The notes below the pieces were generated by a model. The model did no database searches, was not told where the DNA came from, and was given only the letters and a program-made list of their open reading frames with translations. From Paracoccus indicus (lineage in GTDB: Bacteria > Pseudomonadota > Alphaproteobacteria > Rhodobacterales > Rhodobacteraceae), in contig NZ_PYWA01000010.1 in NCBI RefSeq assembly GCF_003056335.1, positions 62,001 through 126,000 on the forward strand: a stretch of DNA of 64,000 nucleotides, given 5' to 3'. Below, piece by piece: positions 60,565 through 63,221 of this stretch. The translations under genes were made by a program, and so were the position numbers. Numbering within the stretch: position 1 is the first letter of the stretch; each line of letters opens with the position of its first letter.

Positions 60565-62310
60565 GTGTCACAGGGAGTATTCTTCATCGCGGCGGCGCTG
60601 CCCGTCGCGATCGTTTTCGTTCTGCTGGTCGTCATGCGGCGATCGGCCAAGCTGGCGATGCTGGCGGCCTATCTGGTCACCGTGGCCTTGGCGCTGGTGC
60701 TGTGGGGGGCGCCCATCGCACGCATCGCCGGGGCCACGGTCAACGGGTTGGTGACGGCGGTGACGCTGCTCTATATCGTGTTCGGGGCCATCCTGCTGCT
60801 GTACACGGTGCAGGAATCCGGCGCGATCCGGACGATCCGGCGCGGCTTCACCGACATCTCGCCCGACCGGCGCATCCAGGCCATCATCATCGCCTGGATG
60901 TTCGGCTCGATGATCGAGGGCGCTTCGGGCTTCGGGACGCCTGCCGCCGTGGCGGCCCCGCTGCTGCTGGCCATCGGTTTTCCGGCAATGGCGGCGGTCA
61001 TGGTCACGCTGATCATCCAATCGACGCCGGTGTCCTTCGGCGCGGTCGGCACGCCGATGCTGGTGGGCATCAATACCGGCCTGTCGAACAGCGAGGCGGT
61101 AGACACGGCCATCGCGCCGATGACGCTGGCGGAATACGGGCCGGTGGTGGCCGCTCAGGTGGCGCTGGTCCATGCGCTGGTCGGCGTGCTGATCCCGCTG
61201 CTGATGGTGGGGATGCTGACGCGGTTCTTCGGCGCCAGCCGCAGCTTTGCCGAGGGATTCCGCGCGTGGAAGTTCGCCATTTTCGCCGGGCTGGCCTTCA
61301 CGCTGCCCTATCTGCTGGTGGCGAATGTCCTGGGCCCCGAGTTCCCCTCGTTGCTGGGTGGTCTGATCGGGCTGCTGATCGTGGTGCCCGCGGCGCGTGC
61401 GGGTTGGTTCCTGCCAAGCGACAGCTTCGATTTCCCGCCCCGCGATCAGTGGGAGGATGGCTGGCAGGGCAGCGTCCACCCCGAGGAGGCCGATCTTGGC
61501 CCGCAAGGCCGGCAGATCTCGCTGCTGACGGCATGGATGCCCTATGTCATCGTGGCGGTGCTGCTGGTCCTGACGCGGACCATCGCGCCCTTGAAGGCAT
61601 GGCTGACGGGGCCGTCCACGACCATTGCGTTTCGTGACCTCTTCGGGTCGGGGATCAACGCCTCGGCGCAGTTTCTCTATGCGCCGGGCAGCGTGATGAT
61701 CGTCGCCTCGCTGATCTCGGTCGCGCTGTTCCGGATGCGAGGGCGCGATTACAGTCGGGCCTGGGCGATCTCGGGCCGGACGATGCTGGCTGCCGCCCCG
61801 GCGCTGCTGCTGGCGGTGCCGATGGTGCAGGTTTTCATCAACTCGGGGTCGGACGGCATGCCGTCGATGCCGATCACGCTGGCGCAGGGGATGGCCGCCG
61901 CGACAGGCGCGACATGGCCGATCTTTGCGCCGGTGGTCGGCGCGCTTGGCGCCTTCATCGCCGGGTCGAACACGGTGTCGAACATGATGTTCTCGTTGTT
62001 TCAGTTCTCGACCGCCCAAGGCATCGGGCTGGACCTGGCGGGCATCACGGTCGTCGTCGTGCTGCAAGCGGTCGGCGGTGCGGCGGGCAACATGATCTGC
62101 GTGCACAATGTCGTGGCCGCATCCGCCACCGTCGGCCTGACCGACCGCGAGGGCGACCTGATCCGCAAGACGCTGATCACCATGGCCTATTACGTCGTGC
62201 AGGCCGGGCTGATCGGCATGGCGCTGATCGGCGGCGGATTGTGGTGGGCGGCTGCGGTGGTCTGGGCCGTCGTGGTCGTCGGCGCCATGCGCGCCAATCG
62301 CGCCCGCTGA
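60565..62310 (+). CDS. L-lactate permease family transporter
   Basis: A 581-residue LctP-family permease with about fourteen helices. Family features: [35 protein letters not shown] and, near the end, [19 protein letters not shown] with [17 protein letters not shown]. It takes up lactate or glycolate by proton symport. The start is GTG 60565 with GAGGAGGAG 8 nt upstream. No lactate dehydrogenase gene is adjacent. A perfect inverted repeat terminates the gene from both sides. Confidence 0.93.
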
Positions 62311-62346: not shown

Positions 62347-62618
62347 CTGTGCAGGCAGTTGGGGTGCGACCCGCTCTGCCCGAACTGGAAACGGACCGCC
62401 CAGATCTGGCGGCCCGCGAGTTCCACGGAGATGGTCCGGTTAGGGATGGAAACCCGTCCGGTCCCAATCAGGGTTTACGACCTTCGGGACTGCCCTCAGG
62501 CCACGGCCCCCCAGACTGTTCCGACACCTCTCTCCAATATCACTCTCGACACTGGACCACCTCCTTTCAAAAGTTTGCCGTTATGGGTTGAGGTTGCCAC
62601 AGATCCAGATTCTGTCAA
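62347..62618 (-). ncRNA. Possible structured small transcript region, unidentified
   Basis: A gene-free stretch of 272 bp. On the minus strand it holds a near-perfect complement to the 16S anti-Shine-Dalgarno end (GAAAGGAGGTGGTCC, 62554-62568), a short ORF, stems such as CCGG-based pairing at 62431-62466, and a terminator at its end (62317-62346). This layout suggests a short transcript of about 220-250 nt ending at that terminator. I do not recognise an RNA family; 4.5S, 6S, RNase P and tmRNA signatures were looked for and not seen. Confidence 0.35.
62496..62552 (-). CDS. Hypothetical 18-residue small ORF with very strong ribosome site
   Basis: GTG at 62552 lies 7 nt after GGAGG in a 15-nt stretch almost fully complementary to the 3' end of 16S rRNA. 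The frame reads VSRVILERGVGTVWGAVA and ends TGA at 62496. Such short frames can arise by chance; the ribosome site is the only support. It could be a leader peptide or a small protein. Confidence 0.3.
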   Translation of the reverse strand: MSRVILERGVGTVWGAVA

Positions 62619-63221
62619 TCAGCTTTTGTCCGCGTTGCGCAACAAATTGCGGACGATCAGCCGGAAGGGCACAAGGGCCAGTAGCGCCAGACCAAGTTTG
62701 ACCAACCAATCGGCAACTGCCAGCGAAACCCACAGGGCGGTGACCGGACCTTGGCCAAGCAGCGGAACGGCCTCGGAGGACCAGCCGGTATTGACGTCAT
62801 GGGGCAGGAAGGCCGCGAAGGCGATTCCGAAGAACAGCACCGTGTCCAGCGCCGATCCGATCAGCGTCGAGGCCAGCGGCGCACGCCACCAGCGCCCCGC
62901 CCGCAGGCGGTCGAAGACGGCGATGTCGACCCACTGCGCCACCAGGAAGGCCGTCCCCGAGGCGATGGCGATGCGCAGGGTCGTCGCATCCAGCAGTGCT
63001 GCGACCAACGAACAGATGACACCCACGACGAAACCGGCCATCACCACCCGACGCGCGGCGGATGCGCCGTGGACGCGGTTCATCACGTCGGTGACCAGGA
63101 AGGCCAGCGGATAGGTGAAGGCGCCCCATGTCAGCCAGTCGGCGACGGTGAACTGCACGAGGATGTTCGAGGCCACGACGATGGCGGCCATGGCAAGGAT
63201 GCCGGGCAGAAAGCGGGTCAT
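62619..63221 (-). CDS. yhhQ: Queuosine-precursor transporter, VUT/YhhQ family
   Basis: A 200-residue membrane protein with six helices of the vitamin-uptake-like (VUT/DUF165) family, believed to take up preQ0/preQ1 or queuine. Features: ASNILVQFTVADWLTWGAFTYPLAFLVTDVMNR, ATTLRIAIASGTAFLVAQWVDIAVFDRLR and WWRAPLASTLIGSALDTVLFFGIAF. ATG 63221 is used. The 89 bp upstream contain a TTCCG/CGGAA hairpin but no convincing preQ1 riboswitch. Confidence 0.9.
   Translation of the reverse strand: MTRFLPGILAMAAIVVASNILVQFTVADWLTWGAFTYPLAFLVTDVMNRVHGASAARRVVMAGFVVGVICSLVAALLDATTLRIAIASGTAFLVAQWVDIAVFDRLRAGRWWRAPLASTLIGSALDTVLFFGIAFAAFLPHDVNTGWSSEAVPLLGQGPVTALWVSLAVADWLVKLGLALLALVPFRLIVRNLLRNADKS

Follow-up and report, generated by a model that had tools for sequence, protein, structure and literature searches.

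The minus strand of the window, by which we mean the whole 64,000-nucleotide stretch of Paracoccus indicus DNA that was analysed, carries a small unit that, to judge by sequence comparison, seems to be a genuine regulatory RNA and to be translated. The unit lies between a YhhQ-like gene (Vut_1, ending at 62619) and a convergent lactate permease gene (ending at 62310), and comprises a putative promoter at about 62618-62591, a site complementary to 16S rRNA at 62568-62554, an open reading frame (ORF) at 62552-62496 and a hairpin at 62416-62392. What a preliminary description had observed in this sequence is real. Our preferred interpretation, to which we give an even chance, is that of an independent dual-function RNA whose RNA half would be gated by translation initiation, through binding of the 30S subunit.

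The 3' tail of 16S rRNA is single-stranded. A 15-nt stretch nearly fully complementary to it had been reported here, 7 nt from a GTG codon, and both points were borne out. The extended Shine-Dalgarno (SD) sequence GAAAGGAGGTGGTCC, at 62568-62554 on the minus strand, pairs over 15 bases, with one G-U, with the tail GGAUCACCUCCUUUC (duplex energy -29.1 kcal/mol), and the 7-nt gap runs from the end of its GGAGG to the GTG at 62552. We read the tail from a 39-mer listed among the oligonucleotides of a paper on S. meliloti (PMC6943124); this 39-mer is taken to be the 16S 3' end of that species. A pattern search for the 16S end of the window genome itself and of 12 relatives did not find it, nor did a search among the collected loci. 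In the 3.5 Mb genome, the GAAAGGAGGTGGTCC block has a single exact copy and no copy with one mismatch; when up to two mismatches are allowed, 9 matches are obtained, versus 10 for the reversed control.

The unit had been called an orphan, which proved wrong, as it is conserved across the family (Rhodobacteraceae) and has related RNAs across the class (Alphaproteobacteria). Of 101 genus genomes, 100 showed the conservation in sister species on which the preliminary description had made its reading depend. The sole genome with no convincing copy (G021, 99% completeness) gave a partial best match with an E value of 0.0027. The unit is single-copy, with one full match in the genome, the remaining matches being short with E values of 0.25 or worse. 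A model built from 52 family RNAs, R1, matched 135 of 150 family genomes, 29 of which had supplied sequences to it; among the genomes that did not feed the model, 106 of 121 were matched, a few of them weakly or partially. An exact short motif was present in 99 of the 150 family genomes, in 79 of 387 class genomes and in 77 of 397 genomes of a phylum sample, where no match fell outside the class. The reversed motif, used as a control, had no match in the class, family or phylum samples. Carriers named among the 80 stretches listed, from a scan yielding at least 119, were Mesorhizobium, Bosea, Bradyrhizobium, Methylobacterium, Sphingomonas, Novosphingobium and Inquilinus. A contig labelled as a Gemmatimonadota metagenome-assembled genome (L157) also carries the exact motif, by either contamination or transfer.

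Seven matches were on viral contigs. A tRNA-Gly gene is near the RNA in two of these contigs, both of Bradyrhizobium type, at L247:3433-3506 and L251:10780-10853, within 0.3 kb in both cases; an integrase-like gene, clear in L251, adjoins the tRNA gene there, and another, below the Pfam cut-off, is near the RNA in L250. The RNA in L247 and L251 probably lies next to a prophage attachment site. An origin from a plasmid or phage was rejected, as there was no plasmid match for the RNA and the viral-contig copies of L247, L250 and L251 were read as host flanks of prophages.

A reading frame of fixed length

The 18-codon ORF opened by GTG, VSRVILERGVGTVWGAVA, was found as described, at 62552-62496 including its TGA. 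The only criterion for a Rhodobacteraceae-type ORF was its first seven residues. Of 57 unique ones, 51 are exactly 18 codons long, four have 20, one has 24 and one leaves its contig, and all three stop codons are used. The pattern that yielded the class set fixes RTGTC, so that start codons and codon 2 are biased in this set; a check was therefore made on places lacking the exact motif, namely the 20 best-scoring of 36 R1-positive genomes without it. An 18-codon ORF was present at 20 of these 20 places, the stop at codon 19 being TGA in 10, TAG in 9 and TAA in 1, and at two places one base was lost between the ribosome site and the start codon. Because the 18-codon length is fixed and the three stops interchange at codon 19, the ORF is probably translated in Rhodobacteraceae. 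Judged by sequence comparison only, the unit would thus encode the translated peptide expected of a dual-function small RNA.

Codon changes were counted in ORFs with a stop at codon 19, leaving out codon 2, which is fixed by the motif; related sequences are not independent, so that these counts are not formal tests. Over codons 3-12, synonymous single changes numbered 59 versus 42.0 expected, compared with 19 versus 27.3 and 21 versus 28.0 in the two shifted frames, and much of this excess is supplied by Gly11 (31 synonymous changes to 1). Over codons 3-18, the figures were 116 versus 84.9 in the ORF frame, and 71 versus 62.3 and 79 versus 66.2 in the shifted ones. The 20 motif-free ORFs alone gave 15 versus 9.9 over codons 3-12, and no excess over codons 3-18 (21 versus 21.2). 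Length and frame are therefore the strong signal and the residues a weak one, and selection on the residues is weak.

These counts bear on the idea that the unit is a small-protein gene, with the 18-residue peptide as its product and internal pairing of the ribosome site merely tuning synthesis. The kept frame and length, and the synonymous excess over codons 3-12, are what such a gene would give. However, residue selection is weak, and nil over codons 3-18 of the motif-free set, in which Ser2 is replaced in 5 of 20 ORFs. Beyond Rhodobacteraceae, the ORF mostly has 14-36 codons, and no peptide motif common to different families was seen among the class-set ORFs; conserved helices 3' of the stop codon would moreover be unneeded for a peptide. 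We regard this explanation as unlikely, though it keeps a real share of the probability. Between the dual-function RNA and the small protein that the preliminary description had proposed, fixed length and stops thus support translation and the RNA structure is conserved as well, while the weak residue selection counts against the peptide. In the whole class set (186 unique ORFs), median length is 20 codons (5-95%: 18 to 32; range 14 to 71), versus 3 to 99 and 1 to 130 codons in the other frames.

Two variants of the ORF were noted elsewhere. At three related sites (L072, L075 and L215) it runs on to 58, 56 and 59 codons, with a hydrophobic, signal-peptide-like start; the mini-ORF may have been extended into a secreted small protein, or such a protein may have taken its place. 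Six Bradyrhizobium-type loci (L179, L190, L196, L200, L222 and L244) share a near-invariant 14-residue peptide, VSxxKRCHLAGIAR.

Predicted internal pairing of the ribosome site

The stem-forming sequence reported 3' of the ORF is present: in the fold of minimum energy, GGAGGUGGUCC and GGACCAUCUCC form 11 bp, although the fold as a whole is only modestly stable (z -1.77, with 9 of 200 shuffles equally stable). The 3' partner is a predicted internal anti-SD segment, the lock (GGACCATCTCC, 62427-62437, minus strand), with 11 bp possible with 62564-62554. In Rhodobacteraceae generally, a post-stop segment reading C[AG][CU]CUCC in most RNAs can pair with GGAGGUG. The commonest of these 7-mers among the 52 RNAs are CATCTCC (25), CACCTCC (9) and CGCCTCC (8), and pairing is full, wobbles allowed, in 50 of 52. 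The best 7-mer, picked per RNA in the same way for the control, scored 16.6 versus 10.7 for shuffles, the largest of 200 shuffles reaching 11.9; shuffles in this and in the site-hiding and energy tests preserve base composition only. The segment is also present at 19 of the 20 motif-free places.

The GGAGG is predicted to be hidden in Rhodobacteraceae, with a probability of being unpaired of 0.018 versus 0.343 with shuffled tails, and in 61 of 62 RNAs its pairing partner is located 3' of the ORF. Such hiding was rejected as a feature of the whole class, the other groups showing little or none of it: the site was no more hidden than in controls in the SHC, MSSD, Sphingomonadales and mixed groups (SHC 0.404 versus 0.267), and the Bradyrhizobium group showed mild hiding (0.183 versus 0.231). 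Within the family, the 7-bp GGAGGUG part of the lock is kept; of the pairs beyond it, the two in the middle are open in 25 and 40 of the 52 RNAs. Duplex energies were -29.5 kcal/mol for the SD with the 16S tail, -19.4 with the lock and -13.1 with shuffled locks, and in every one of the 52 RNAs the 16S pairing was the stronger.

Helix P2 joins codons 12-15 (62510-62518) to the post-stop sequence CCCTGATTG (62465-62473). In a swap test on it, own partners scored 17.38 versus 14.52 for swapped ones, with 0 of 2000 permutations as good, whereas for the control codons 5-10, 1931 of 2000 were as good. In the window, its 62465-62473 pairing has one U-U mismatch, because codon 14 is TGG. Helix P1 pairs codons 2-5 with sequence 5' of the terminator (in the window, codons 2-4 with a possible 3' strand, CTCG, at 62417-62420). 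Class-wide, its own partners scored 14.18 versus 11.46, again with 0 of 2000 permutations as good (130 unique strands, 217 of 240 RNAs), though in only 22% did the own partner rank within the top tenth of its row. Within Rhodobacteraceae, P1 was rejected as a proven feature, 1247 of 2000 permutations being as good there.

With lock, P2 and terminator placed on the alignment, double changes occurred in 16 of 29 pairs. Double-change cells numbered 96 versus 32.0 in shuffles, and 89.6% of cells were paired versus 83.7% shuffled (0 of 500 shuffles as good). Pairs with changes on both sides were 7 of 9 in P2, 8 of 9 in the terminator and 1 of 11 in the lock, where most variation falls on the strand that is free to change, as it would if the need to match 16S constrains the other. 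With one such pair in 11, covariation leaves the lock unproven, and its support from comparison is less direct.

The preliminary description had also proposed a ribosome-trapping transcript, and the same pairings weigh on the possibility that the RNA is mainly a ribosome decoy, occupying 30S subunits through its 16S-complementary block. The block does match the 16S tail, at -29.5 kcal/mol, and its exact form occurs in many families of the class. In Rhodobacteraceae, however, the predicted hiding of the block speaks against an always-open trap, and the GATCC end of the match decays, all 15 bases being kept at 4 of the 20 motif-free places. A fixed ORF length would not be needed either, and we consider a decoy quite improbable. 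Alternatively, the RNA might act as a sponge that takes up regulatory RNAs bearing CCUCC seeds, as CrfA does with SisA-D in Caulobacter (PMC12559287). GGAGG would be able to pair with such seeds; yet pairing of the block with the SisA-D core UUUCCUCCCU is worth -8.7 kcal/mol, versus -29.5 for 16S, and a sponge seems very improbable.

Transcript boundaries and neighbouring genes

On the minus strand, TTGACA at 62613-62618, directly 3' of the YhhQ-like gene's stop codon, is the likely -35 element, and CAACCT at 62591-62596, 16 nt past it, would be a weak -10 (CANNNT), judging by the genus alignment and upstream sequences. Spacing is conserved: TTG[AC]C lies 51-54 nt from GGAGG in 42 of 52 other Rhodobacteraceae and 53-55 nt from it in 25 of 25 Paracoccus upstream regions, against control rates of 0.25 and 0.4 per 80 nt. 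Transcription would start near 62584. As a consensus scan of the locus found neither promoter nor terminator, we infer both ends of the transcript from conservation. At the 3' side, the hairpin with a short T run at 62389-62416 (only TTT in the window) is the likely main end, with double-change stem pairs across the family. The perfect terminator, shared with the convergent lactate permease gene, that the preliminary description gave to the unit does exist as a hairpin at 62346-62316. It did not hold as the boundary and was rejected as the conserved 3' end, since matches in the genus mostly stop at about 62410-62379, in or just past the 62416-62392 hairpin; the nearest relative (L009) does match further. 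The shared hairpin may be a second terminator at most.

In six of 14 Sphingomonadales-type upstream regions (L063, L065, L130, L158, L174 and L182), CCGGTGAAA lies about 30-45 nt 5' of the ribosome site, occupying the place where Rhodobacteraceae have TTGAC. These loci are possibly under different promoter control.

A yhhQ-like gene is upstream in 47 of 83 Rhodobacteraceae loci, a count from which short contigs and a simple ORF caller make some missing. The commonest upstream gene differs between families, which argues for the independence of the unit. Downstream, 19 of the 83 loci (for example L134:1928-2389) have an RF-1-domain gene, which we take to be arfB-like, and no Paracoccus locus is in this cluster. 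An RF-1-domain gene beside an RNA built around a ribosome site would be intriguing if it encodes a ribosome-rescue factor. Since neighbours vary, the RNA serves no single constant neighbouring gene, and this tells against a leader or attenuator of the next gene, in spite of the ORF, alternative helices and terminator, and of the downstream RF-1 gene in those loci. The gene that follows in the window is convergent rather than on the same strand, and clusters other than the arfB-like one have other downstream genes. We thus hold this explanation to be highly improbable. Chance or artefact, for which only the empty consensus scan could be cited, is scarcely credible in view of the conservation (100 of 101 genus genomes), the ORF length and the covariation.

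A proposed gated dual-function RNA and its relatives

In the gated model that we prefer, an independent small transcription unit would give a structured RNA, about 195-200 nt long, which doubles as a tiny mRNA. At rest this RNA would be in a locked fold, with the anti-SD segment on the ribosome site. A free 30S subunit could open the lock, since the 16S tail pairs more strongly than the lock in all 52 RNAs, as isolated duplexes. Translation of the 18 codons would then unwind P2 and keep the C[AG][CU]CUCC segment free, and the freed segment, the peptide or both may act in trans. The comparisons support translation, P2, the 3' hairpin and, less directly, the lock; gating and action in trans are what we infer from them. 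Against the model stand the relaxed GATCC in part of the family, the absence of the lock elsewhere, the modest stability of the fold and the weak selection on residues.

A bolder version, in which we place little confidence, would make this RNA a class-wide sensor of translation-initiation capacity: it would carry a near-perfect partner of the 16S tail, kept closed in Rhodobacteraceae by the RNA's own mimic of that tail and opened by free 30S subunits, translation of the 18 codons would register them, and the released anti-SD would damp initiation on other mRNAs. If gating is true, the RNA would report directly on how many ribosomes are available; if it is false, a widely conserved small translated RNA is still left. 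In either case, an RNA present in 135 of 150 sampled family genomes, with near-exact ORF length and a predicted built-in anti-SD imitation, has no function that we found in open-licence papers.

Several known systems can be compared with it. Like rnTrpL/peTrpL of Sinorhizobium, a dual-function attenuator RNA, it is a small RNA with a tiny translated ORF; unlike there, no trp or other constant gene is downstream, the peptide is another one, and rnTrpL is leaderless (PMC10117765). Among 54 non-annotated small ORFs of S. meliloti, that of SEP1, a 23-residue peptide, was the most efficiently translated (PMC10117765). The resemblance, by description only, lies in the tiny, highly translated ORF, SEP1 being close in length to the ORFs of the Rhizobiales members, and homology would be a possible lead. 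CrfA (PMC12559287) is another small RNA of Alphaproteobacteria that pairs through a G/A-rich segment, but its partners are UUUCCUCCCU seeds, whereas here the block matches the 16S tail.

The only Rfam match in the window at gathering score is a serC leader (RF00517), at 2698-2749 on the minus strand. No family reached gathering score at the locus of the RNA, and a known RNA family as its identity was rejected on this ground. The window copy scored 35.7 bits (E 3.6e-6) against RF01867 (CC2171), below the gathering threshold of 75 bits. CC2171 is a Caulobacter small RNA, reportedly named by Landt et al. in 2008. In the open-licence papers, as far as term searches reach, CC2171 or RF01867 came up only in a table row of PMC5596092 (Mesorhizobium) and one of PMC11701678 (Rfam 15), neither row giving a function. 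Term searches of PMC7717549 and PMC4117421 brought up nothing on this RNA, and of the Caulobacter Hfq papers, '2171' did not occur as a term in PMC11005374, nor 'CC2171' in the text of PMC12559287 available.

Both RNAs have GAAAGGAGGUGRUCCAGUGUC and a terminal G+C hairpin. The 5' block of RF01867, GAAAGGAGGUGAUCCAGUGUC, is present in the window copy with one A to G, and so is the G+C-rich 3' terminator hairpin, the alignment using the distal hairpin in the window scan and the proximal one in the genome search. RF01867 matched 66 of 289 class genomes, 10 of them above its cut-off, and none of the five family genomes that it matched in this sample passed. R1 matched 27 of the 289, of which five belong to the family; among the remaining 22, the match coincided in place with that of RF01867 in 19. 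What the two models have in common lies chiefly in the 5' block and the hairpin. Unlike CC2171, the window-type RNA has an anti-SD lock after the ORF and a fixed 18-codon ORF. Because it fails the threshold and adds these two features, we would describe it as a diverged relative of CC2171 rather than a member of the family. This links a so far unexplained Rfam family to translation, its Rhodobacteraceae relatives being probably also tiny mRNAs.
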